64,000 nucleotides of DNA from Lachnospiraceae bacterium (GTDB lineage Bacteria; Bacillota; Clostridia; Lachnospirales; Lachnospiraceae), in assembly GCA_015056945.1 (NCBI GenBank), contig SVFH01000001.1, positions 62,001-126,000 on the forward strand, read 5' to 3'. The notes beneath the pieces are model-generated. The model made no database searches. It was given only the letters and a program-made list of their open reading frames with translations, and was not told the origin of the DNA. Both the position numbers and the translations under genes were made by a program. Of this stretch, positions 11,416 to 39,147 are shown in pieces (the stretch's first letter is position 1; every line of letters begins with the position of its first letter).

Positions 11416-12600
11416 GTGAAGGAGAATCCGACCGTCATTTCCTATCAGGAACCGAGGAAAGAGACCGAAACCTATGAGTTTACCTACGCCAAGGACGGCC
11501 TCTTAACAAAGACCGTGGCACCGGATAAATCGTATAAGGAAATCAGCTATGATTCCTTAAGAAGACCGGCAAAGTATATATTTACACCAAAGAGCGGTGT
11601 TTCGGGAAGTAAAAAGCTGTATTCTTCCATGACATATCTTGGTGATACCATTACCACGGCAGACGGTAAAAGTAAAAAGGTTACATCAACACTGGTACAG
11701 AAATACGTAAATCAGTTCGGTTCCACCGGAGCAACCGTTTCAAGCTTTGAATACGGTTATGATGACTGGAATAACATCGTAAAGATAACAGATACCGCTG
11801 CTAAAGCAGACGGCAAATCGGAAAGTGTCAGAACGTACGCATACAACGATTACGGTGAGGTTACGAAAGTCGTTAAATCATACGGAAACGGTCAGAAGAA
11901 TACCTACACCTATACCTATGATGTGTGCGGACAACCCATTAACTATATGGGGGCAACCTGTAAGTGGGATGTATACGGAAATCTTGTTTCCTACAGCAAG
12001 GGAAATGATAAAATAACCTATACGTATACCTCTGACGGCAGACGAAGAAGTAAAACAGTAAATGGTGTTACAACCACCTACTGTTATCATAACGGCCTTC
12101 TGTTATCCGAAACCACGGGAGACGAAACACTTCGTTATTATTATGATAATACCGGTGCGGTTCTTTCCATTGGTTACATTAAGGGAAGTGCGGCAGAAAA
12201 TAAGTACTTCTTTACACGAAATGCACAGAATGATATAGTTTCTGTATACCGAAGCAGTGACTCGAAGCTAATCGGAACCTACGAGTATGATCTCTGGGGG
12301 AAACCAATCAGTATCAAAGAAGCAACCCAGGGTATCGATACAGACGGAATCTTAACAAAGAACCCTCTTCGTTACCGCAGTTACAGATACGATGCGGAAA
12401 CGGGATTCTATCACTTAAAGAGCAGATATTATGACCCGAACATCAGACGATTCATCAGTGCGGATACGGTGGCAGTATTAACCGTAGAAACAACATCTCC
12501 GGGCTTTAAGAACCTGTTTGCCTACTGTGAAAATAATCCTATTATCATGGAGGACAGCACGGGACAGGCAGGAGTTGTTATTTTCGGAGTATTTGTTTGA
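11416..12600 (+). pseudogene. RHS/YD-repeat protein, C-terminal core fragment (5' truncated)
   Basis: About 394 codons of RHS-repeat sequence with repeated Y-D and G-x-x motifs (YDSLRRP, YDDWNNI, YDVCGQP, WDVYGNL, YDNTGAV, YDLWGKP). It ends in the classical core-closing block YRSYRYDAETGFYHLKSRYY followed by DPNIRRFISADT and FAYCENNPI. Intact RHS proteins are much longer and begin with a secretion or anchoring region. Here an in-frame TAA at 11410 and the gpmI terminator stand directly upstream, there is no signal sequence, and GTG 11416 is only the first possible start. The codons are visibly richer in C and G than in the neighbouring genes. An in-frame TGA ends it just where the variable toxin tail would begin. 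Best read as a decayed polymorphic-toxin gene. Confidence 0.8.
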
Positions 12601-13190
12601 GTAGATGTTATCTTTGACTGGGGAGGACTTACAATCAGCGTCATTGATTTAGCCCATAATCTAAAAGATCCGTTAGCATATGCAGAATTGATATATTTTT
12701 CCTGGGATGTTATACAGGTGAAGCTGTCAATCTGGTTAAATATTCTGTGCGTCATGGTTCCGACATTGTAGTGTGGTTTGCAAGGAAGTTTGGCGATGAT
12801 GTTGCTGCGATGGCTGTAAAGCATAGTGATGAGGTACTCAAGGGTGGAACAAAGATTGCCGATTTATCAAAAACAGCATTAAAGCATCCATTAAATCGAC
12901 ATACACCAACCAGAGTAGCCCAACAGTTTAAACATATGGATAAAGTTTCAATTAATAAGTATTTGGATGAAGTCTCTTTTTTTAATAAGTCATGGACGGA
13001 AGAACAGATTACAGAAGCATTAAATTATGGATATAAAGAGGCACTTTCTAAAGGAGTAGTGAATGGAGAATATAGTTTCAAATATTTAGGTGATAATGTT
13101 ACGATATATGTAGAAGAAGGTGTCTTTAAATCAGGATATGGTGACTATATTTATTCATATGAAGAAATAATGAGTTCGTTATTCAATTAA
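12601..13190 (+). pseudogene. Polymorphic-toxin tail continuing the RHS fragment (stop plus frameshift)
   Basis: After the TGA at 12598-12600 the same frame continues with plausible junction sequence (VDVIFDWGGL...DLAHNLKDPLAYAE). Near 12690-12715 coding sense moves to another frame, which reads GEAVNLVKYSVRHGSDIV before the ATG at 12747 and runs on to 13190. The last ~100 residues, from KHPLNRHTP to a Tyr-rich end, look like a compact RHS C-terminal effector domain with clustered Arg/His; I could not assign it to a named toxin family. Because of the stop and frameshift the tail cannot be made as one protein with the RHS core. Translation of the last 147 codons from ATG 12747 remains possible. 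Confidence 0.65.
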
Positions 13191-13221
13191 TACTATGGAT
13201 TTGCAAGAAAGAGGTTTTAAT

Positions 13222-13689
13222 ATGATTAAAATGAATTGGATTATTACAGATGACCTATCAAGAATAAGTATAAAAGAATTTGAGAATGAATGGAATGGTA
13301 TTATATCTGGATATTTCGAATTAAATATTAATCAAAGTAAAGAAGGGTTTTGTCCACAAAGGGATTTACAGAAAGGCGAGGAAGGAAATGAGGATGTTTT
13401 ATTTTGGTTAAGTCATTTAAAAGAAGCTATTAGTAATCTAAAAGAAGGCAAAGATTATGAAATGATTCTTTTGACTATGAATAGATATAAGATTTATATG
13501 AAATATGATGATAGTGTTAATTTTTATTTTATTAATAGAAATAGCAATATTGTTAAATGGCATGAAAAAATTTCAATGCAAGAATTTGAAATTGAATTAA
13601 GCAAAAATATAAATGCGTTCTATCAAGTGTTAAAGGAGAACAACATAGAATTATTAGAATCAAAATGGATAATGAGGCTAAGAGAATAA
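13222..13689 (+). CDS. Probable immunity protein for the first toxin tail
   Basis: A 155-aa acidic, soluble protein with no signal peptide or membrane helix and no recognised family. It follows the toxin tail after 31 bases, the position in which RHS systems place the cognate immunity gene. The ATG at 13222 is preferred to one nine codons upstream because AGAAAGAGG lies seven bases before it. Base composition is very A/T-rich, unlike the RHS core and typical of immunity genes. Function is inferred from position only; the toxin itself appears broken, so this may persist as protection against related neighbours. Confidence 0.6.
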   Translation: MIKMNWIITDDLSRISIKEFENEWNGIISGYFELNINQSKEGFCPQRDLQKGEEGNEDVLFWLSHLKEAISNLKEGKDYEMILLTMNRYKIYMKYDDSVNFYFINRNSNIVKWHEKISMQEFEIELSKNINAFYQVLKENNIELLESKWIMRLRE

Positions 13690-21715: not shown

Positions 21716-22053
21716 GGGGTAGTCAAGGTTTCGACAGGGGTACTGCAGCTGGAGAAGCTATCCGCAGGTGATGCGTCAAATCACAACCTAAATATAAACG
21801 CTGATAATAAATTAGCTTTAGCAGCCTAATTGCTGCTTGTCCTTCCTGTTACACCTGCATAACGGGGTAAGGGCATCATTAATTGCAGGAAACGACCGTC
21901 GCTAAGCTTTGCGCGCCGGGGCGTATCATGAAGCTACTAATACACAGAGGGTGATGATTCCCGCTGTGTGGAGGGAATGATAAAGAATCATCTATGATAG
22001 TAGAAGGACAGGGAATTTATCTTTGGACACGGGTTCGACTCCCGTCTACTCCA
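21716..22053 (+). ncRNA. ssrA: Transfer-messenger RNA (tmRNA)
   Basis: A one-piece tmRNA of about 338 nt. The 5' GGGGUAG pairs with the 3' CUACUCC to form the acceptor stem, followed by discriminator A; CCA is not encoded. The T-arm GGGTTCGACTCCC is near the 3' end, and the 5' D-like part holds GTCAAGGTTTCGACAGGGG. A short tag frame at 21800-21829 reads ADNKLALAA followed by TAA, matching the usual LALAA-type proteolysis tag; the resume codon is taken as GCT 21800, though in-frame codons upstream leave this slightly open. It tags proteins on stalled ribosomes together with SmpB. The ends are set from base pairing and are accurate to a few bases. Confidence 0.95.
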
Positions 22054-28359: not shown

Positions 28360-28371
28360 ATTGTTATTTTT

Positions 28372-28402
28372 AGGGACACCACGTTAGGTGTCCCTTTTTT
28401 CT
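28372..28402 (+). terminator. Terminator of the EF-G-2-like gene
   Basis: AGGGACACC / GGTGTCCCT stem with a six-base loop followed by a T run. Confidence 0.9.
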
Positions 28403-28412
28403 TTGCATTATC

Positions 28413-28442
28413 TTGTGTTTTACCTCTGTTGTGTGTTATATT
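28413..28442 (+). promoter_or_regulatory. Possible promoter of the TIR-LRR gene
   Basis: TTGTGT (28413-28418), an 18-base spacer and TATATT (28437-28442), 45 bases before the start codon. Imperfect boxes. Confidence 0.4.
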
Positions 28443-28487
28443 AAATTAGTTGTATTGTTAAGATTTTTATCGAGAGGGAATTTTAGT

Positions 28488-30722
28488 ATGGCAGACGTTT
28501 TTATAAGTCACAGTTCAAAAGATAAGGAGATTGCAGACCGTTTGTGCGAGTATTTGGAACGTAATGGTTTGAAGTGTTGGATTGCACCGAGAAATATTGA
28601 ACCCGGGTGTGAATGGCCTGTTGCAATCAGTGAAGCAATTCAAAATGTTAAAATCATGGTTGTGATTTATAGTCATAATGCGGCTTCATCAACGCAGGTT
28701 CCTAAAGAATTAACATTAGCCGACAAAAGAAAGAAGAGGATCATTCCTTATAAAATTGATGATGCTGATTTGGAAGGTTCGTTTGACTATTTTTTGTCAA
28801 GTGCACATTGGATAATGGAAGATAAAGCAAATCCGGATGCATCATTTGCCGAATTACGCAAGGTTATTTGCAATTCCATCGGCTTTATAATGCCACAGGA
28901 ACTTGAGGCAGCTTCACATATATCGGAAGACAATATTCACCAAACTGTGATTACACAACCGGTATCTTCAAAAGAGGTCAAAACGGTTTCCGGTCCGGTG
29001 AAAAATAAGACCAAAAAGAAAAAGGCATGGTTACTTCCTGTTTGTATCGGAGGTGGTATCGTCGCTTTGGGGCTTCTTTTGTTCTTTGTTATAGGAATTG
29101 CGCTTATCGGCGTCGGATTAAGCAGTTCTTCCGGAACAAATAATATGAATGCTTCGTCTGATAAGGTTTCTCCGGCATCTGATTTTCAGTATTTGGTAGA
29201 CCCTGAAGGAGTTGTAATTACGAAATATATCGGAACCGAAGAAGAAGTAGTGGTACCATCGGAGATTTCCGGAACTTCGGTTGTAGAGATTTCTAATAAT
29301 GCATTTGCAAATAATACTGAAATTAAGACAGTATATTTACCGAATTCAATTCTTTTTATTGAATATGGGGCATTTTGTAACTCATCAGTTGAAAAAGTAT
29401 TTTTGCCGAAAAATCTTACACGAATATGTTCTTATGCCTTTTATGGTTGTAAAAATTTAAAGCAAATTACTTTTCCGAATACAATAGAACGAATAGAACC
29501 TTATGCATTTGGTGAGAGCGGTTTGGAGGAACTTGTATTACCGAATTCTGTACAGCATATTATGGAGTTTTCTTTTTATAATTGTACAAAATTAAAGAGT
29601 ATAACGTTCTCTGAAAATTTAAAAAGTATTGGAACAGGGGCTTTTGCTTTTACAGCAGTTGCAGAAGTAAACTTGCCTGATTCGATTCGTCATTTATCCG
29701 CTGAAGTCTTTATGGAATGTGATGAATTGGTTAGTATTAAGTTTCCCCGTGACATAACTTCTATTCCTTCGCATTTCCTGTATTCATGTTCGAAACTTAA
29801 AGATGTTACGTTCCCGAGCGGATTGCTTAAAATTGATTATTATGCGTTTGGATTTACAGCACTTGAAAAGGTTGATCTTTCGAATACTCCGTTGATTTCG
29901 ATTGAATATGGTGCTTTTGAATCTTGTATAAATTTGAATGAAGTAATATTTCCGAATTCGCTAATTGTTATTGAAGATAGGGCATTTCGGGCGTGTGCGT
30001 CTTTGTCGGATGTTTATTTGCCGGAGCGGTTTCAGTACCTTTATTCTACAGCATTTGAATTGTCTGATAAAATTAAGGTTTATTTTGAAGATAAAGAATT
30101 TTTGTATGATGAATTGTCCGGATTATCCGTTAAGATGAACGAAAAGCTTGCATCTAAATTTACATCTACCTTAACAGATGATGGTTTACGAATCGATTCT
30201 TACATTGGCACGGATATGTGTGTGGTTGTGCCGGAGACCATAAATGGAGTTTCGGTTACTTCGCTTGGAAGTAATGCATTTTTCAGCAATAAAGAACTGC
30301 TTTTTATTTTCTTGCCTTATACATTGCACACGATAGAAGCGAATGCATTTATGTATTGTTCTAATTTGCAGATGGTTTCGGGAGGAGAAAGTGTGACAAC
30401 TGTTGGTGATTCTGCATTTGCCTTGTCAGGTTTGATTGAACCATTCTTACCGTTAGGTGTTACAAATATTCCGATGAATATGTTTTATGGTTGCAATAAC
30501 TTGACGAATATATATGTACATAAGTATGTTACGGCTGTTTATCCTATGGCATTTGCTTATTGTGAATCTTTGGATACGATTAGTTTTACCGAAACAACGA
30601 AAGAGATTTCATGGGATGCTTTCACGGAATCTTTTGCGGTAAATGTATATGTACCATATTATTCCTATTCATATGAGCAATTAGAATTAATACCGAACCT
30701 TGTTGATTATCAGGGGTATTAA
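28488..30722 (+). CDS. TIR domain - transmembrane helix - BspA-type LRR protein
   Basis: A 744-aa protein. Residues 1-130 form a TIR domain: DVFISHSSKDKEIA, then CWIAPRNIEPGCEW, MVVIYSHNAASS and VPKELTLADKRKKRIIP, with Glu74 at the position of the catalytic glutamate of NAD-cleaving TIRs. A linker with a KKKK patch leads into one helix (about 181-210). The rest (about 230-744) is a string of ~23-residue LRR_5 repeats of the BspA/Treponema type (IEPYAFGESGLEELVLPNS and similar). By the positive-inside rule the TIR is cytoplasmic and the LRRs face outward, as in a Toll-like receptor with reversed domain order. ATG 28488 is preferred over an upstream in-frame ATG because GAGAGGGA precedes it. 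Ligand and effector activity are unknown. Confidence 0.9.
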   Translation: MADVFISHSSKDKEIADRLCEYLERNGLKCWIAPRNIEPGCEWPVAISEAIQNVKIMVVIYSHNAASSTQVPKELTLADKRKKRIIPYKIDDADLEGSFDYFLSSAHWIMEDKANPDASFAELRKVICNSIGFIMPQELEAASHISEDNIHQTVITQPVSSKEVKTVSGPVKNKTKKKKAWLLPVCIGGGIVALGLLLFFVIGIALIGVGLSSSSGTNNMNASSDKVSPASDFQYLVDPEGVVITKYIGTEEEVVVPSEISGTSVVEISNNAFANNTEIKTVYLPNSILFIEYGAFCNSSVEKVFLPKNLTRICSYAFYGCKNLKQITFPNTIERIEPYAFGESGLEELVLPNSVQHIMEFSFYNCTKLKSITFSENLKSIGTGAFAFTAVAEVNLPDSIRHLSAEVFMECDELVSIKFPRDITSIPSHFLYSCSKLKDVTFPSGLLKIDYYAFGFTALEKVDLSNTPLISIEYGAFESCINLNEVIFPNSLIVIEDRAFRACASLSDVYLPERFQYLYSTAFELSDKIKVYFEDKEFLYDELSGLSVKMNEKLASKFTSTLTDDGLRIDSYIGTDMCVVVPETINGVSVTSLGSNAFFSNKELLFIFLPYTLHTIEANAFMYCSNLQMVSGGESVTTVGDSAFALSGLIEPFLPLGVTNIPMNMFYGCNNLTNIYVHKYVTAVYPMAFAYCESLDTISFTETTKEISWDAFTESFAVNVYVPYYSYSYEQLELIPNLVDYQGY

Positions 30723-30870
30723 AAAATGAAAAAATGGATTTTCCTGCAGATGCACCCAAAGATGATGCAATGCTGCAGGAAAAGAAGAAGTTACTGATAA
30801 GTTTACAGGAATCATTGTAAAAAAATTATCATTCCGGAAGAAATGTTTCTGTTATTATGAAACCTTAATA
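30723..30870. other. Short gap between convergent genes
   Basis: About 150 bases with no credible gene. A direct repeat of CTGCAG-containing words (TCCTGCAGATG, GCTGCAGGAAA) is visible near 30742-30782 but forms no clear terminator. Confidence 0.4.
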
Positions 30871-31143
30871 TTATTCGATGTGATATTGTTTTAATATTTT
30901 TTGAATCAATACCTGTTCCTGGGGTGTTGCAGTTTGTTTGATTTGACTTGCAAGCAAGAGAATGTCTGCATTGCTGAAGGTAATGCCGGCGTCTCTTGCT
31001 TCTTTCATTTTTTTCTTCATGAATTGCATGCCTTCGGTTTTGTCTTTGAACTTAGATGCTTCTTCGGTAAAAGAAGCCATAAAAGCTTTCTTTTCTTCTG
31101 AAAGCGCTATTTTCTTACTTAAATCATCAAGATTGATACTCAT
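30871..31143 (-). CDS. Small acidic/basic helical protein of unknown function
   Basis: A 90-aa soluble protein, almost wholly helical and charged (KKKMKEARDAGITF), with no membrane segment and no family recognised. Its ATG overlaps the stop of the upstream minus-strand gene (ATGA), with GGAGGATAATGA as ribosome site, so the two are translationally coupled. Confidence 0.65.
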   Translation of the reverse strand: MSINLDDLSKKIALSEEKKAFMASFTEEASKFKDKTEGMQFMKKKMKEARDAGITFSNADILLLASQIKQTATPQEQVLIQKILKQYHIE

Positions 31144-31508
31144 TCATTATCCTCCTTCATGGACATCATTTCCTGATACATCTGCATTGTTTCCATCATT
31201 TCCTCCATTTGATTGATACTTTCACGTTGTTCAGGGGGAAGTTCTTCTTTTAATTTTTTGAGTATATTCTCCATTGACGGTTTTTCCGGCTCTTTTATGT
31301 ATCTGCCTGCATTTACTTCGTTTAGTAATTGTATGGATTGTCTTAATTCCATTACTTTAATAAGAAGCTCGACTTTGCAACGGAGCGAAGTGTCAAGAAA
31401 CTGGCAGAAAATACGAAGCATACATAGCTGTGTTTGCGAAAGTATTTCTGAATGATCTGAATTGTTTGGCTGGTTTGTATTGCAAGAATCTCTGTCAAAA
31501 ATTATCAT
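31140..31508 (-). CDS. Helical protein of unknown function, partner of the downstream 90-aa protein
   Basis: A 122-aa soluble protein. The N-terminal half has cysteines and hydrophobic helices (LCMLRIFCQFLDTSLRCKVE) and the C-terminal half is a Glu/Met-rich coiled coil (MEEMMETMQMYQEMMSMK). AGAGAGGGATTGATAG before the ATG is a good ribosome site. The coupling to the 90-aa gene suggests that the two products bind each other. Function unknown. Confidence 0.65.
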   Translation of the reverse strand: MIIFDRDSCNTNQPNNSDHSEILSQTQLCMLRIFCQFLDTSLRCKVELLIKVMELRQSIQLLNEVNAGRYIKEPEKPSMENILKKLKEELPPEQRESINQMEEMMETMQMYQEMMSMKEDNE

Positions 31509-31545
31509 CTATCAATCCCTCTCTTGTATAATCTATGCATACCGC

Positions 31546-31580
31546 AATAAAAAATGCCGGACACTTGCGTCTCCGGCATA
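31546..31580 (-). terminator. Terminator of the cysteine-rich protein gene
   Basis: On the minus strand ATGCCGGA and TCCGGCAT form a stem followed by TTTTTTATT. It separates the cysteine-rich gene from the two-gene unit transcribed in the same direction further left. Confidence 0.85.
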
Positions 31581-31587
31581 AATTTAA

Positions 31588-31878
31588 TTAGCAGCCAAAA
31601 CCGTTTTTGTTACCGCAGCAGCAAAGTAAGAGAAGGATCCAGATGATACTTTCGCATCCGTTGCCCATACCGCATCCGCTGTTCTGCTGAGAAGAACCAT
31701 TATTGCCGCAGCAGCACAGAAGAAGTAAAATCCAGATAATGGAAGAGCATCCGCCATTGTTTCTTGTCTGTGAACAGGAATTGCATCCGCATGTGTATGC
31801 AGGTGCTGCAGCACATCCGCAAGAATCATTGCAATCACATGCATTGTTGAAAGAACAGGAATTTGTAAAGTCACTCAT
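31588..31878 (-). CDS. Cysteine-rich small protein with a duplicated WILLLLCCCGN segment
   Basis: A 96-aa protein with about 20 cysteines. The first 45 residues hold spaced CxC and CxxC motifs (CDCNDSCGC, CGCNSC). Then the segment SIIWILLLLCCCGN occurs twice, joined by a glycine- and cysteine-containing spacer. Proteins of this type are common in Clostridia and are often labelled 'chorion class high-cysteine' proteins, a similarity of composition rather than function. The short hydrophobic stretches could insert in a membrane or coat layer. A TTG five codons upstream contains the ribosome site GGGAGG itself, so the ATG at 31878 is the start. Role unknown; metal binding or a spore/envelope structure is possible. 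Confidence 0.7.
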   Translation of the reverse strand: MSDFTNSCSFNNACDCNDSCGCAAAPAYTCGCNSCSQTRNNGGCSSIIWILLLLCCCGNNGSSQQNSGCGMGNGCESIIWILLLLCCCGNKNGFGC

Positions 31879-32021
31879 ATATGAGCCTCCCAAAAAGAAT
31901 TGTTATACTTTATCTTATGTATAAGGCTTGTTTTTTGTTACGATTAATTTATGAATTACCCAAAACTTTTAATTTTGACGAAATAAAACACATAAATAAT
32001 AGCAATATATTGTAAAAACAC

Positions 32022-32049
32022 TTGATAAAAATTCAATATATAGTAAAAT
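32022..32049 (+). promoter_or_regulatory. Promoter of the sortase-LRR genes
   Basis: TTGATA (32022-32027), a 16-base spacer and TAAAAT (32044-32049), 50 bases before the sortase start, in an A/T-rich divergent region. Confidence 0.5.
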
Positions 32050-32098
32050 ATATATGTAAAAGTGTACAATTTTCATGTAAAAGAAGGATAATAATCGG

Positions 32099-33277
32099 AT
32101 GAGCCGTTTTGTTTTGGGGAAATATCGATTTCTGACACAGGAAGAATATGAAACTGCGAAATTAGAATCAGATACTATTCGTAAAATTCGTTCAGAGACT
32201 GATATGAATTCATATGATGCAGTTAAAAAGCTATATGCAAGATTGTCTAACGGCGAATTGTCTTTTTCTTCTCAAATCGGTCGAGATTTTGATGATGAAA
32301 TATTCGAATTATATGAAAAATTGAAAGCGGAATCCGGTGGAAAAGAAAAAAACTCAGGCAAAAAGAAAACATCGATTACGTCGGATAAAGTTTCTAAATT
32401 GGAAGATTTTGATTCTGATATGCAAAAACAAATACTTTTAGAAATGAAGAAAAGAGAGCGCAATCGCAAAATCGTACTTTCATTGTGTGTATTTGTTCTG
32501 GTTTGCTGTATCGGATATCTTATTTTCTATCAGTATATGGCTTCCAGAACGCAACATCAGCTTGAACAATTGGCACATGTCCGTGAAGAATATCAGTCGT
32601 CATCCTTAAATGATACGAAAGAGGATGATGAAGCAAAGGAAGAGCATTATTATGCGAATCTTACTACCGGTTCTGATGAAAGCGGTATGCCGGATATTCT
32701 TCCGTTGTATGAAGATTTATATAATCAGAATAAAAGTCTAATAGGATGGCTTAAAATTGCCGATACAATAATTGACTATCCTGTTATGCAGTCACCAAAT
32801 AATGAATATTATTTGGATCATAATTTTTATCAGAAATATGACAAAAATGGTTCTATATTTCTTGATGCCGAATGTGATATTCATCCTCGAAGTGATAATC
32901 TGATTTTATACGGACATCACATGAAGAGTGGTAAGATGTTCGGAAGCCTTTGGAAATATGAAGATAAAAATTATTATCTCAAGCATAAACACATTGAATT
33001 CGATACCATTTATGAAACCGGTATTTATGAAGTGATGTATGTATTTAGGGACAGGGTCTATTCAAAAGAAGATGTAAACTTTAAATATTATGAATTTGTG
33101 AATGCAAATTCCGCAACGGAATTTGACTCATATATGAATGAAATGGCAACCATGTCTTACTATGATACAGGTGTGGTTGCTGAATATGGCGACAAACTTC
33201 TTATGTTATCTACTTGTGATTATGAACAAAGTAACGGGAGGTTTGTTGTTGTTGCACGTAAAATCACCTCGGATTGA
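32099..33277 (+). CDS. Class B sortase
   Basis: A 392-aa membrane-anchored transpeptidase. Residues 1-120 are a charged, probably cytoplasmic extension, unusually long for the family; one transmembrane helix lies at about 122-143, and the sortase barrel occupies the C-terminal 220 residues. The catalytic triad is visible: His273 in YGHHMKSGKMF, Cys373 in STCDYE and Arg in NGRFVVVARK. Class B sortases attach proteins carrying NPxTN-, SPxTG- or PPxTG-type signals to peptidoglycan. The next gene, 64 bases on, encodes a large surface protein with a TPKTG signal and is the natural substrate. Confidence 0.93.
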   Translation: MSRFVLGKYRFLTQEEYETAKLESDTIRKIRSETDMNSYDAVKKLYARLSNGELSFSSQIGRDFDDEIFELYEKLKAESGGKEKNSGKKKTSITSDKVSKLEDFDSDMQKQILLEMKKRERNRKIVLSLCVFVLVCCIGYLIFYQYMASRTQHQLEQLAHVREEYQSSSLNDTKEDDEAKEEHYYANLTTGSDESGMPDILPLYEDLYNQNKSLIGWLKIADTIIDYPVMQSPNNEYYLDHNFYQKYDKNGSIFLDAECDIHPRSDNLILYGHHMKSGKMFGSLWKYEDKNYYLKHKHIEFDTIYETGIYEVMYVFRDRVYSKEDVNFKYYEFVNANSATEFDSYMNEMATMSYYDTGVVAEYGDKLLMLSTCDYEQSNGRFVVVARKITSD

Positions 33278-33341
33278 GAGAATATAGGATTTTTAGTATG
33301 AACACCATATGTTTTTTGTTCAACTTGAAAGGGGAGGCATT

Positions 33342-36300
33342 ATGACAAAACAAAAAAAGAAAAGAAGACTTAGTGCACGTATGAAAAAAACAATTCGTTA
33401 TACAGTAGGCGGTTTATTACTGGTTACAGCACTTGTTGTGGCTTTAATACCTCAAAAGGGGATTGAAGCGAGTGGAGAAGAACCGCGTGTTACGGTTTCT
33501 GATTCGGAAAGCAGCATTCCTGTGATTGATGATAAGGATACGGTATATACCACAGGTGATGGTATGTTTCAGTTTGCTTATGTTGAGAAGGGGAGCGGCG
33601 GTGATAAGGTAGCGGTTATTGTCGGCTATGATTATGAACGTTCTCTTGAAGGCGGTGAACTTACAATTCCAAATACTGTGGACGCTTATGTAAAGTATAC
33701 ACATGCACAGGGAACTTCGGGCGGATATGTTGCTGTCGGTAAAAGCGGTAATATTTTATATTATCCTGTTTATCACGAAGTAGAAAAAGAAGTTGGTAAA
33801 GATGAAGATGGTAATCCGATTGTTGAAGTTGTAAAAGAAATCCTTCGCTATGATCCTTGCCTCTATTCAACCTATACTTCCTGGTATTATACAGATGACG
33901 GCAATGTTCGTGAACCGAAAGATTATTATTATGAAGATTCTTCTGCTCCGGAAGGTTATTCCCCGACATTACTTGAAATCTATCAGCGTATTCAGAATGC
34001 TTCCGTAGCATATATATCAAGTCAGCATGTTGTTAAAAATGAAGATGGAGAATGGGTGCTTGATCCGACACCGAATACCGGTATTTTCTCTAAGGCTACG
34101 AATATTCAGATATTAAAAACCGGTTCAAATCTTCTTGGTATCGGTAACTATGCTTTTTATGAATGCGCATCCCTCCGCGGAATTGATTTATCTGATGGTG
34201 CAAATACAATCGGTAATTATGCATTTGCAAATTGCGTAAACCTTGAGTATGCAAATTTTCCGATTAATTCAAGTGTAAAAGCTCTTGGTGATCATGTGTT
34301 TTATAATTGTCGCTCTTTAAAAGAGTTTGATATGCCTGTTGCAGTACAGAAGGTTGGAGATTCTGCTTTTGAAGGTTGTACAGGTCTTGTTGACTTGAAT
34401 CTTATGCCGCAGAGTAAAAATGTATTGCTTACTACACTTGGTGATAATGTATTTAAGAATTGTACAAAGCTTTCTAAGCTTGAACTTCCTGATACATACA
34501 ATGAAGATTTTGATATCTCATGGATTGAAGGCTGTTCTTCACTTGCATATATCCGTGTACCGAATCTTTCTCAGAGATTTGTGGCAAAAGGAAGTTTTGG
34601 ATTTGCGGAATTAATGGAACAGTTGCCGGAAGAATTCTATTTTGAAGGTGCTTCGGATTCCAAGATTCATGATATTTCCAAAACAAACAGTTTTGCGTTT
34701 AAATATCTTGATGAAGAGATTTATGAAAAGGTTGTTGTGGCCAGCGGTACAGCAGGTACAGGACAAACCGTGTTCAGGATTAATGATAAAAATGAATTGA
34801 TTTATTTCTATATGGACAAGACTGTTGCGGAAGTTGTACTTCCCGGCAAAATCGGTCCTTATGAAATCACAAGAATCGGTTCAACAAGTTTTAACGGAAA
34901 TCATCATATTAAGAAGATTTCCATTCCGGATAGTATTGTGGCCATTGAAGATAATGCTTTTTCGGGTTGTCATTGCTTACGAGATGTTATTTTTGAAGAT
35001 GCTTCCAAAATTGAAAAAATCGGTGCCGGTGCTTTTAATACACAGGTAGTTGATCCGATTATTGATGGCTGTAAACTTGATGACAAACCGGTATTGACTT
35101 TTACCGGCGTTGCAGAACCCGGTTCGGTTCCTTTTGAATATGCGATGAATCCGGCAAATAATATCAATCGCGGAAGTCAGCAGACTTCATTCATTACTTT
35201 CTACACAGGTTGGCCGTCCAACCTTACAATTCGATATAATGCGAATACGGATAAGAATGAATTGATTGATTATCCTTCTAATATGGAAGAGCTCGGAACC
35301 AAATATACTATGGCAAATTATCCGTATATCACACAGGAATGCGAGAACGCTGCTTCTAAAGCATATGCAAACTATAAGAGCGGCGCGCCTATGAGTCAGG
35401 ATGAAAAGGATATTATCGGAGCTGCATTAAACGTAAGAATCCCTGCGGGAGTAGAAAGCGTTAAAGAAGGTTTGTTCTCAGGCAAAACATCTGATGGTAC
35501 CGAAATCGGTATACCGAATACTTCTATCGAAACAATTACACTTGACGGATGTTCATCAATAACTCCGTATATGTTTTCGGGTTGTACAAACCTGATTGGA
35601 GCATATATCGGAGAGAAGACACAGGTTCTTGGTGATTATGCATTTGAAGGCTGTGCAAAGTTAGCAGATGTCGATGTTGCTTCCGGGTTAAATACATATG
35701 GTATCAGACCTTTTAAAGGCTGTAAAATTTTACAGGAAGTATCATTTATTGATAATCCTAATTTCACCTGTAAGGATGCGATTGTTTATGCTACCGTAAA
35801 CGGAGAAAAAACCAAACTTCTTGAAGTGCTTGAATCCAGAGGTGTATCTTATGGTACAGGTGCAATTACAGCTGCAGAATTAGAAGGTATTACAGAAATA
35901 GCGAAAGAAGCTGCAATGGATTGCGACGGTATTCTTTCTGTTGATTTCTCGAAATCTAAGATTAAAGAAATTCCGGAGTCCTGTTTTGAAGGTACAGATG
36001 GTTTGTATTCCATTATTTTACCTGATACTTGCCGAAATATTAATAAAAAAGCTTTCAAAGACAGTAATGTGCGTTATCTTGAAATACCTACCAGCGTTGG
36101 ATTTATTGATAATTCAGCATTTGAAAATGATAAACAGATTATTACTTTTTATTGTGAGCTTGACAGTCCTGCGGCAGTTTATGCAGATAATTATGAAAAC
36201 ATTGTTGTTTCCGAAAAAGCGGTTATATTTAAAGTTACATTTGCTGACGAAGACGGAACGGTTCTGGATACAGTATATGTTAATGCCGGTGCGGATGCGA

Positions 36301-37583
36301 CCACACATGTTATTCCGAAGAAGGAAGGATATGTCTTTAAAGCATGGCTTCCTGCTCCTGTTGGTGTAACGGCTGATATGACGACTTATGCGACTTATTC
36401 AGAAAGCAATGTGACATACCTTGTTCGTTTCATTGATTATGATGATAAGGTGTTAAGTGAACAGTATGTAAAAGAAGGCGGTACTCCTGTCACACCTGTA
36501 AGTCCTGAGCGTGAGGGCTATAAATTTACGGGCTGGAGACCTTCATACGAAAATATTACCAAAGATACGGATGTCTATGCTCAGTACGAGAAGATTGTTG
36601 ATGAGGATGAGGACAAGAAAGAAGAAGGTAAGGACGATTCCGATAAAGACAAAGATGATAAAGACGATAAAGATAACAGCAGTGATAAGGATAATAACGG
36701 TGGCGGAAATAATAACAACACCACATTATATACTTTGACTGTTGTAAACGGAAGCGGAGGCGGAAGTTATGTTGCCGGTGCGACTGTAATCCTTCTTGCT
36801 GATAATCCGCCTGCAGGAAAAGTATTTGATAAGTGGACAACAGATACGGAAGGGGTGACATTTTCCGGAAGTACTGTAGCTGCAACAACAATGACAATGC
36901 CTGCTAAGAATGCTACAGTAACTGCAACATACAAGAATTCGGCATCAGGTTCGGGTTCATCAGGAAACAACAGTGGTTCCAATAATAACGCAAACAATGG
37001 TTCCGGTTCATCATCTAATACGGAAGTTAGTGTTGATAAAGATGGCTGGTCAAATGGGCAGTTTTCTGCAACTGTTTCCGGTTCTTCAGATAATTTCGTA
37101 TTAAAGATTACTGACAGCGCATATGCCAAAAAAGAGATCGAAGCAGCGCTTGAAACGGAATATGGTTCATTGAATGATTTGAAATATTTCTGCATGGATA
37201 TTTCGCTTTATGATTCCACAGGAACCAAAAAAGTTGAAAATGCAAATGATTTACGGGTTACAATTACTTTGCCGATTCCGAATGACTTAGTTAAGTATGC
37301 CGGAAATAATCGGATTGCTTATGTTTCTAACGGTAAATTAATACCGTTGAGTCCTAAATTTACAACAATCAATGGTGTTCCGTGTATGACATTTGTTGCA
37401 ACACATTTTTCACCGTATACGATTTATGTTGATACAACGAATCTTTCAGCCGGCAGCATTATTGATACCACACCTAAGACCGGTGATGGCATTTCACCCA
37501 AATGGTTTGTATGTATCGGTATGGCGGCACTTGCGATTTTCCTCTTTGTTAAGAAAGACAAAAAAAGAGTGGTTGTTAAATAA
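33342..37583 (+). CDS. Large wall-anchored BspA-type LRR surface protein (TPKTG signal)
   Basis: A 1413-aa exported protein. A basic N-terminus and hydrophobic helix (about 19-37) form the signal peptide. Blocks of LRR_5 repeats (for example IGNYAFANCVNLEYANFP, LGDHVFYNCRSLKEFDMP) fill about residues 250-930. Two InlB-type B-repeats follow (about 965-1080; GYVFKAWLP, GYKFTGWRP), then an Asp/Lys-rich linker, a divergent B-repeat (GKVFDKWTTD), a Ser/Gly/Asn linker, a beta domain and the sorting signal TPKTG (1377-1381) with a hydrophobic helix and basic tail. ATG 33342 is chosen because GGGGAGG precedes it. It is likely an adhesin or sensor shown on the cell wall; the ligand is unknown. Confidence 0.92.
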   Translation: MTKQKKKRRLSARMKKTIRYTVGGLLLVTALVVALIPQKGIEASGEEPRVTVSDSESSIPVIDDKDTVYTTGDGMFQFAYVEKGSGGDKVAVIVGYDYERSLEGGELTIPNTVDAYVKYTHAQGTSGGYVAVGKSGNILYYPVYHEVEKEVGKDEDGNPIVEVVKEILRYDPCLYSTYTSWYYTDDGNVREPKDYYYEDSSAPEGYSPTLLEIYQRIQNASVAYISSQHVVKNEDGEWVLDPTPNTGIFSKATNIQILKTGSNLLGIGNYAFYECASLRGIDLSDGANTIGNYAFANCVNLEYANFPINSSVKALGDHVFYNCRSLKEFDMPVAVQKVGDSAFEGCTGLVDLNLMPQSKNVLLTTLGDNVFKNCTKLSKLELPDTYNEDFDISWIEGCSSLAYIRVPNLSQRFVAKGSFGFAELMEQLPEEFYFEGASDSKIHDISKTNSFAFKYLDEEIYEKVVVASGTAGTGQTVFRINDKNELIYFYMDKTVAEVVLPGKIGPYEITRIGSTSFNGNHHIKKISIPDSIVAIEDNAFSGCHCLRDVIFEDASKIEKIGAGAFNTQVVDPIIDGCKLDDKPVLTFTGVAEPGSVPFEYAMNPANNINRGSQQTSFITFYTGWPSNLTIRYNANTDKNELIDYPSNMEELGTKYTMANYPYITQECENAASKAYANYKSGAPMSQDEKDIIGAALNVRIPAGVESVKEGLFSGKTSDGTEIGIPNTSIETITLDGCSSITPYMFSGCTNLIGAYIGEKTQVLGDYAFEGCAKLADVDVASGLNTYGIRPFKGCKILQEVSFIDNPNFTCKDAIVYATVNGEKTKLLEVLESRGVSYGTGAITAAELEGITEIAKEAAMDCDGILSVDFSKSKIKEIPESCFEGTDGLYSIILPDTCRNINKKAFKDSNVRYLEIPTSVGFIDNSAFENDKQIITFYCELDSPAAVYADNYENIVVSEKAVIFKVTFADEDGTVLDTVYVNAGADATTHVIPKKEGYVFKAWLPAPVGVTADMTTYATYSESNVTYLVRFIDYDDKVLSEQYVKEGGTPVTPVSPEREGYKFTGWRPSYENITKDTDVYAQYEKIVDEDEDKKEEGKDDSDKDKDDKDDKDNSSDKDNNGGGNNNNTTLYTLTVVNGSGGGSYVAGATVILLADNPPAGKVFDKWTTDTEGVTFSGSTVAATTMTMPAKNATVTATYKNSASGSGSSGNNSGSNNNANNGSGSSSNTEVSVDKDGWSNGQFSATVSGSSDNFVLKITDSAYAKKEIEAALETEYGSLNDLKYFCMDISLYDSTGTKKVENANDLRVTITLPIPNDLVKYAGNNRIAYVSNGKLIPLSPKFTTINGVPCMTFVATHFSPYTIYVDTTNLSAGSIIDTTPKTGDGISPKWFVCIGMAALAIFLFVKKDKKRVVVK

Positions 37584-37617
37584 GTAATTTTACAGTAAAA
37601 AAGAAAGGATGAAAGAT

Positions 37618-39147
37618 ATGGTTAAGAAAAAACTTGCTTTAATATTAAGCAGTGCTTTACTCATGATATCAGTTTCCTTTCTTTTTTCTGTGGCATTAAA
37701 AGGTAAGGCAGAATCAACGGTCTTGTTTGAAATGAGCGGAACTACTTTGATGAGGTATAATGGAACCTCAAAGCATGTAACGGTTCCTGCAACGGTTAAA
37801 ATCATAGGAAAAGGTGCTTTTAACGGTAATAATGATATATTAAAGGTTACGATTCCTTCATCAGTAGAATTGATTGATTATGAAGCCTTTGCAGACTGTG
37901 ATTCACTTGTGGAAGTTGATATTCCGGACTCTGTTCTTGCCATCCGTTCCTCGGCTTTTGCAGATTGTGATGCATTGATGGATGTGTCAATTGGTACGGG
38001 GCTTAAAGAGTTAGGATCAGGTGTATTTGCCGGGTGCGATTCTCTTTCTGATATTAATATCAGTCCAAAAAGTGTGACGTTTACGTGTGTAGATGGTGTT
38101 TTATATGATGCGCAAAGAACAATCTGTTATCAGATCCTTGCCGGACGCGATAAAACATACTATATTATGCCGGATACCGTGACAGAGATAAAGCAATATG
38201 CCTTTTGGGGGAACGAAAATGTGAAACATATGGCTATGTCTGAAAATCTTTCGGTACTGACGGCATATTCCTGTTCAAATGCGTCTGCATTACAAAGCGT
38301 CACAATGAGTTTTAATGCGAAAGAAATTCAGATGAAAGCTTTCGAGGATTGTGTATCTTTAGAACAGATATATATTCCTGATTCTGTCCGGATGATTCAT
38401 GAAACTGCTTTTGATGGTTGTCCTAAACTTCAGATTTTTGCTAATTATTACAGCAAAGGAGCCACATTTGCTCAAAATAATGATGTGAAATGGATTGAGA
38501 AAGCTGAATTTGCATTGAATCAGGCCGAGCTTGAAAAGGAAGAATATTTTTTCAGAAAAGAAAAAGAAGCAGAGCTTGCTAAAGCAAAAGAAGAAAAAGA
38601 GTATGCAGATGCAATTGCAAAGAATGAAAAAGGCTTACTTGGTAAAACACAGATTGTCGGTGAGCATGCAGTTGTTTTGTTTAATCGTTATGATACAACG
38701 GTAAATTCAGGGGCGCAGGCTGCTTTTGAAGATAAATTAAAAAAAGGTATTTCGGCCGGCAAAGTGAAAGAGCATTTGTTTTTCATGGAAAAGGATTTGA
38801 TTCAGATTTCTTTACCTTCTGATATCAAAGAAATCGGTGAGCTTTCTTTTGCCAGAACTTCTTTGAAGGAAATAACAATACCTGAAGGAGTTACAACCAT
38901 TGGATATGGCGCTTTTTATCATTGTGAAAGTCTCGAGGAGGTTAGAATTCCCGATACTGTTTCATTTATTGATGCAAATGCTTTTGCTCATACTGCATGG
39001 CTTGAGAACTGGTATGAAAATGCAACAGAAGACTATTTGATTGTTGGTGATGGTGTTTTACTTGCGTATAAGGGAGAGGCAAACGCATATGTAAAACCGG
39101 ATGGGGTTAAATGTATAGCATGTGAAATTCCGACTGTATCATATTGA
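37618..39147 (+). CDS. Secreted BspA-type LRR protein
   Basis: A 509-aa protein with a signal peptide (about 1-33) and no sorting signal. LRR_5 repeats run from about 50 to 285 (IGKGAFNGNNDILKVTIPSS, IRSSAFADCDALMDVSIG). A Lys/Glu coiled coil follows (about 297-340), then a small mixed domain, then three more LRRs (about 400-475). It starts 34 bases after the wall-anchored LRR gene. ATG 37618 is chosen over 37609 because AAGAAAGG directly touches the latter. Its TGA stop lies inside the -35 box of the next promoter. It may bind the anchored protein or a host or community ligand; no catalytic domain was seen. Confidence 0.88.
   Translation: MVKKKLALILSSALLMISVSFLFSVALKGKAESTVLFEMSGTTLMRYNGTSKHVTVPATVKIIGKGAFNGNNDILKVTIPSSVELIDYEAFADCDSLVEVDIPDSVLAIRSSAFADCDALMDVSIGTGLKELGSGVFAGCDSLSDINISPKSVTFTCVDGVLYDAQRTICYQILAGRDKTYYIMPDTVTEIKQYAFWGNENVKHMAMSENLSVLTAYSCSNASALQSVTMSFNAKEIQMKAFEDCVSLEQIYIPDSVRMIHETAFDGCPKLQIFANYYSKGATFAQNNDVKWIEKAEFALNQAELEKEEYFFRKEKEAELAKAKEEKEYADAIAKNEKGLLGKTQIVGEHAVVLFNRYDTTVNSGAQAAFEDKLKKGISAGKVKEHLFFMEKDLIQISLPSDIKEIGELSFARTSLKEITIPEGVTTIGYGAFYHCESLEEVRIPDTVSFIDANAFAHTAWLENWYENATEDYLIVGDGVLLAYKGEANAYVKPDGVKCIACEIPTVSY

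Follow-up and report, generated by a model that had tools for sequence, protein, structure and literature searches.

The window, that is, the whole stretch of 64,000 nucleotides of Lachnospiraceae DNA analysed here, carries a gene on the plus strand (28488..30722) between the genes for EF-G and a sortase. It begins with an ATG at 28488, its stop codon ends at 30722, and it encodes 744 amino acids. A purine-rich stretch, GAGAGGGA, lies just 5' of the ATG, and a terminator-like hairpin (28372..28395, plus strand) is located 3' of EF-G. The hairpin is weak evidence alone, because two such sites were found in the region and 2.2 were expected in shuffles. Together, the hairpin and the purine-rich stretch suggest that the gene may form its own transcription unit. 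The GC content of the gene is 0.362 and that of the window is 0.372, and therefore composition gives no mark of foreign origin.

The protein starts with a TIR domain (residues 1–130; 28488..28877), recognized by Pfam, a structural model and conservation, which contains Ser7, CWIAPR (30–35), Gln70 and Glu74. The Pfam family TIR_2 (PF13676) matches residues 4–121 with an E-value of 1.3e-21 and 77.8 bits, the curated cut-off being 28. The domain is followed by a disordered linker, predicted to be cytoplasmic (residues 131–179; 28878..29024; pLDDT below 50 over 135–191), that ends in KKKK (176–179). Then comes a single predicted membrane helix, residues about 191–211 (29058..29120), called from hydropathy and flanking charge; its core of 21 residues has a mean hydropathy of 2.9, and the model shows a helix at 191–207. 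About 20 residues beyond it begins the ectodomain, a BspA-type LRR portion of about 510 residues, in which LRR_5 (PF13306) matches five stretches (E 5.2e-129, 424.4 bits, curated cut-off 27.7). According to the model, this portion consists of two modules with a helix (540–555) in between. Module 1 (residues about 233–540; 29184..30107), predicted to lie outside, was defined by Pfam, the model and the fold match, and module 2 (residues 556–728; 30153..30671) by the model and the alignment of relatives; among five aligned relatives, only L042 has module 2. All these parts are read on the plus strand. The earlier note, made from the DNA letters alone, had proposed a layout of TIR, one helix and LRR_5 ectodomain, and Pfam domains, hydropathy and the model agree that this layout is real. 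The motifs that it had named were all found in their places: FISHSSKD from residue 5, WIAPRN from residue 31, VPKEL with Glu74 from residue 71, and the KKKK patch. Its single helix was also found; the note had given its span as 181–210, and the core is that given above. The two-module split of the LRR part was absent from that note.

The TIR domain was modelled with 75 aligned TIRs as input (mean pLDDT 93.4). The comparison of this model with NADase TIRs, which had been proposed as a check, gave the SARM1 TIR as the top Foldseek match in the PDB (9mw2; E 1.8e-7, TM 0.78/0.83). MyD88 stood at rank 5, plant RPP1 at rank 6, SPARTA at rank 14 and AbTir at rank 15 (7uxu, E 6.3e-7). Judged from this model, the Foldseek scores do not separate enzyme TIRs from scaffold TIRs. 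The full-length model, for which only six sequences served as input, has a mean pLDDT of 82.6 and is disordered over 135–191. The best structural matches of the LRR part are bacterial cell-surface LRR proteins, for example 4gt6 (E 3.2e-15). Its fold is common to the BspA-type proteins 4gt6, 4fs7 and 4h09, which are described as surface LRR proteins; unlike the window protein, their matched parts carry no TIR.

Relatives were collected by a scan with the TIR alignment. We used the best 80 of at least 534 confirmed loci, which together with the window protein gave 81 proteins; seven shorter than 230 amino acids were left out, and the topology set comprised 74. Helices were called not by a trained predictor but by a hydropathy rule (a mean of 1.9 in a stretch of 21 residues). 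It turned out that a hydrophobic helix follows the TIR in 63 of the 74 proteins, and these span 12 phyla, among which L102, a Methanocella bin, represents an archaeal one. In L065 and L115, which are included in the count, the best helix is close to the C-terminus, so that they do not share the plan. In eleven proteins no helix passes the threshold; two of these, L045 and L053, belong to the 20-row TIR clade of the window protein, and L096, L105 and L109 miss the threshold narrowly. Lys and Arg residues in the 15-residue flanks are more numerous on the TIR side in 55 of the 63 proteins, fewer in 4 and equal in 4 (binomial 1.7e-12, calculated on sequences that are related and not independent). 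The bias is reversed in L042 (3 v 4), L043 (4 v 5), L089 and L119. Among the matches listed, none is nearer than L042 and L043, whose net charge still favours the TIR inside. In a control without motif selection, 118 class-level genomes were searched with TIR_2, and 29 loci from among the matches, besides the window's, were read, 7 of them running off the locus. Of 5 CWIAPR-like proteins, 4 have a helix after the TIR, versus 6 of 24 others (one-sided Fisher 0.036); because the control set is small, the association of CWIAPR with the helix is only a hint. Against it, seven other genomes of the family have eight loci with a strong TIR match, five with a helix and three without (L125, L128, L129).

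It is very probable, as these sequences go, that the TIR of the window protein lies in the cytoplasm and its LRR ectodomain outside. The positive-inside topology and the receptor-like plan, both put forward earlier, are supported computationally by the gene, the charge statistics of the 63 proteins, the exchange of ectodomains and the recurrence of the architecture. One could suppose that the membrane is not really crossed and that TIR and LRRs are both cytoplasmic, since in L045 and L053, which belong to this protein's clade, the TIR is followed by no helix that passes the threshold. The highly hydrophobic core after KKKK and the recurrence of the helix in most relatives make this scarcely credible.

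Pfam was run on 40 proteins beyond the window's own genes, and two of the 40 are the other TIR proteins of the window genome. A second domain over the cut-off was found in 25 of them and none in 15. This domain is LRR_5 in L042, L043, L046, L050 and L056, MORN in L044, L045, L057, L058, L059, L060 and L061, NPCBM in L052 and L055, Sel1 in L033, L035, L041, L073 and L088, DUF4189 in L062 and L063, DUF6273 in L034 and L112, LRR_4 in L024 and a WD40 family in L032. NPCBM, by its name presumably a carbohydrate-binding domain, replaces the LRRs in two proteins whose TIRs are nearly identical. In other proteins, MORN, Sel1 and WD40 repeats often lie in the cytoplasm, and the MORN protein L045 has no helix over the threshold. 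In a tree of TIRs (91 rows, 134 columns), the LRR_5 carriers form one group (support 86/90, 84% of 200 bootstrap trees), which nests within the 20-row clade (100/98) with MORN, NPCBM and unlabelled forms; L024 falls with a distant TIR class. Some labels in the tree were assigned by reading or by regular expression: Sel1 for L005, L006, L008, L011, L015, L082 and L037, and DUF4189 for L072. L006 had no hit. The remaining labels come from Pfam, apart from that of L036, which was labelled DUF6273 by its likeness to L034, and that of L051, whose MORN match is below the cut-off. L054, L068, L074, L075, L094 and L109 were left out of the TIR alignment, two as contig-end cuts and the others as near-copies or for masked letters, the latter exclusions being made without a formal test.

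In all 15 pairs of six LRR_5 proteins, the identity of the TIRs (44–76%) is higher than that of the ectodomains (28–52%). Going by the domain matches, the relatives keep the TIR and swap the ectodomain between LRR_5, MORN, NPCBM, Sel1, DUF4189 and DUF6273. The opposite would be expected of an LRR_5 surface protein, an adhesin or wall binder, held in the membrane by a TIR that is a mere inner anchor. In favour of this idea, the window genome has 50 LRR_5 stretches listed, and a sortase gene is followed by two LRR_5 genes at 32099–39147 (Pfam), but the invariance of Glu74 also speaks against an anchor, and we regard this explanation as very improbable. A search for the TIR-TM-LRR_5 architecture in relatives, another proposal of the earlier note, showed that it recurs: it is present in at least 4 of the 31 genomes of the genus (30 of 55 match rows were made into loci) and in further Lachnospiraceae (L042, L043). 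Of 378 evenly sampled genomes from the family, eight, with the window's included, match the TIR at E 1e-22 or better, and a regular expression found LRR_5 in none of the other matching loci from the seven other genomes; close relatives are therefore rare in this sample.

We also considered whether the TIR is an enzyme or a scaffold. Glu74 was said in the earlier note to occupy the catalytic position of NADase TIRs; the alignment agrees, and this residue is present in all 75 aligned TIRs, from 14 phyla. Ser7 is present in 74 of the 75. A chance Glu74 was considered as well and dropped: the scan patterns contain neither Glu74 nor Ser7, and the rows are unselected for those residues. The search pattern itself accounts in part for the conservation of CWIAPR. 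The window TIR shares with the NADase TIRs AbTir, TcpC and SARM1 the fold, the strand A serine (Ser7 is AbTir Ser140 by alignment) and the helix C glutamate. It differs from them in the membrane anchor with an ectodomain, in Ala33 at the position of AbTir Asp167 and in Gln70, which replaces the Trp of WxxxE. At this position, four residues before Glu74, the 75 TIRs have Gln in 56, His in 8, Asp in 4, Glu in 3, Trp in 3 and Pro in 1. The profile aligns Glu74 with a glutamate of TLR6, Cat1 and a metazoan TIR-STING. TLR6 is not known to be an enzyme, and the glutamate alone therefore makes no enzyme. According to the accessible part of PMC11374754, AbTir needs Ser140, Asp167, Trp204 and Glu208, the equivalent Trp is dispensable in TcpC, and the Trp is linked to cyclic products (Manik et al., as cited there). 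Since AbTir and TcpC differ in this requirement, the loss of the Trp is not decisive.

NADase activity of the window TIR is plausible from its residues, and we see the chances of an enzymatic TIR as about even. If it is an enzyme, its product is more likely to be linear ADP-ribose than the cyclic isomer, because the WxxxE Trp is replaced. The same replacement in 56 of 75 TIRs and the aligned glutamate of TLR6 are also what a receptor without catalysis could have. Such a scaffold receptor would cluster its TIR on ligand binding and recruit a second TIR protein, such as a membrane TIR-Sel1, in the style of Toll-like receptor adaptors. The invariance of Glu74 is stricter than a scaffold seems to need, and we consider this explanation rather unlikely; enzymatic output is somewhat more likely than pure scaffolding.

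The neighbourhood of the gene bears on the same question. In the congeners G015, G005 and G014, the TIR-TM-LRR_5 gene lies between ABC-F and rex, 36–51 bases downstream of a TIR-TM-Sel1 gene. No such TIR gene is located between ABC-F and rex in the window. Thus, the earlier statement that no partner stands beside the gene holds within the window and fails for the congeners, since all three with the architecture have a membrane TIR gene directly upstream. This arrangement favours the scaffold receptor. Against it, TIR_2 matches number only three in the window genome (88% complete), and no Sel1 fusion is among them. The second TIR protein of this genome (L031:4615-6952, minus strand) joins a TIR to a zinc-ribbon-like part, which matches TIGR03826 (YvyF) below the cut-off, and its gene lies beside a nucleotide-cyclase-like gene. 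The third (L032:1862-9353) has 970 amino acids, with a TIR and WD40-like repeats; its gene is downstream of two two-component systems, named by reading.

When conserved neighbours were looked for, the flanks turned out to differ between the window, the three congeners and L042/L043. In G015 and G005, leuS occupies the place between EF-G and the sortase, where it is absent in the window (28360–32098), and in L042 and L043 a pth-mfd-like pair lies downstream of the TIR-TM-LRR_5 gene. The gene names ABC-F, rex, NAD(P)HX repair, leuS, pth and mfd were assigned by eye, on the likeness of the sequences to these families. A link to the nearby rex and NAD(P)HX-repair-like genes was dropped, because both are in place in the window while the TIR gene sits elsewhere. 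The window TIR shares 67% identity with the TIR of L042 and 44–52% with those of the three congeners. The Mfd-like proteins of L042 and the window genome, however, share only 60%, and EF-G of the window is 93% identical to that of G015 or G005. This mismatch suggests that the history of the gene may include horizontal transfer or differential loss.

The variable position of the gene within the genus and the faster divergence of the ectodomain are also compatible with an anti-phage sensor, in which the ectodomain would detect a phage part at the envelope, the TIR would deplete NAD+ and the cell would stop. TIR enzymes are bacterial defence effectors, as described in the accessible text of PMC13142454. 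However, no defence gene was recognized by reading among the ORFs of the window. A PADLOC scan, applied within the window to the TIR-TM-LRR_5 protein only, gave a best match of 3.3e-10 that covers TIR residues 2–76 only. For TIR defence in bacteria, triggering at the surface would be unusual. An anti-phage role is thus improbable, and the caution of the earlier note on this point was justified. Thoeris ThsB, SAVED-TIR, retron TIR and similar systems were rejected: the PADLOC matches are TIR-only (the retron-TIR match has 29.8 bits, the cut-off being 600), and no partner was recognized in the window ORFs. A plant-type TIR-NLR was rejected too, as the Pfam matches include no NB-ARC between TIR and LRR.

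In animal Toll and Toll-like receptors, as here, one helix stands between the LRRs and the TIR, with the LRRs outside and the TIR inside, both of which are predictions for the window protein. The order LRR-helix-TIR of these receptors is reversed to TIR-helix-LRR, so that the TIR is N-terminal and not C-terminal, and the LRRs are BspA-type LRR_5 instead of TLR-type. Toll-like receptors signal through adaptors, and we know of no adaptor pathway for the window protein. The resemblance is likely to be convergent. TIR-TM-Sel1 and TIR-TM-LRR_4 proteins of the genus have the same succession of TIR, linker, one helix and repeat part; however, the three Sel1 neighbours and the LRR_4 protein belong to a distant TIR class, in which WYD-x-GI replaces CWIAPR, and other Sel1 forms have CWYAPR. 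The LRR_4 gene of a congener (L024:1453-3300) thus apparently represents an independent TIR-TM-LRR. Amoeba TirC, as far as PMC13142454 is accessible, also ties a TIR to a single predicted membrane helix, but this helix is N-terminal, no ectodomain is described, and the TIR is of the TIR-STING (CBASS/Pycsar) kind.

Bacterial TIRs have been studied mainly as cytoplasmic defence enzymes or secreted effectors. The best reading of our data is that TIR-TM-LRR_5 is a real and recurrent protein type that would belong to a wider membrane TIR class with exchangeable ectodomains. A sensor role is reasonably likely. That the window protein is a stand-alone single-pass sensor, built on the Toll-like receptor plan in reverse order, we hold to be an even prospect. 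The proposal draws on sequence features: the domains, the hydrophobic helix, the charge bias in relatives, the constant TIR with swapped ectodomains and the varied gene position. The N-terminal TIR would stay in the cytoplasm, held by one signal-anchor helix, and the C-terminal LRR_5 ectodomain would be exposed outside. There it might bind a ligand in the wall zone; candidates are a peptide, a polymer of the envelope, part of a phage or a further LRR protein of the surface. Binding would cluster the TIRs, which may become active on clustering, and the output may be NAD+ cleavage through Glu74.

More tentatively, and with somewhat less than even confidence, we propose a widespread class of single-pass TIR receptors in Bacteria and at least one archaeal genome bin, with a cytoplasmic CWIAPR[ND]I TIR, a helix and exchangeable sensor ectodomains. 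Within one genus, the TIR-TM-LRR plan would have arisen at least twice (CWIAPR TIR with LRR_5; WYDDGI TIR with LRR_4), convergent with Toll-like receptors, and such proteins would translate what is sensed at the surface into a local signal, either NAD+-derived or based on TIR assembly. Searches of an open-access library and the accessible portions of PMC7075850, PMC7159879, PMC8195603, PMC9092222 and PMC13142454 showed neither a bacterial TIR-TM-LRR protein nor such a membrane TIR class; this absence is not proof, because most subscription papers are outside the search scope. Bacterial TIR groups typically contain proteins of differing architectures, according to the accessible part of PMC7075850. 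If the proposal is true, TIR signalling is a form of general bacterial envelope sensing, alongside histidine kinases, and a convergent Toll-like design becomes testable in simple cells. The TIR with Gln for Trp raises the question of whether it is an enzyme, a scaffold or both.

Other features were observed at and around the locus. A small Cys-rich ORF with a repeated S-IIWILLLLCCCG lies at 31588–31893 on the minus strand, and G015 and G005 have a similar small ORF in the interval from EF-G to the sortase (L161, L162). The C-terminal end of the first LRR_5 gene product after the sortase is presumably a PKTGD-type sorting signal, and the sortase and both LRR_5 genes have counterparts in congeners. 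By reading, an RHS/YD-repeat-like fragment was recognized at 11416–13689; the two short ORFs after it may represent a variable tail and an immunity-like gene. The Mfd-like frame of the window genome (G000:C14:88638-92165) has one in-frame TAG, which could be an assembly error or a sign of a damaged gene. A tmRNA gene with the tag ADNKLALAA is located at 21716–22053.
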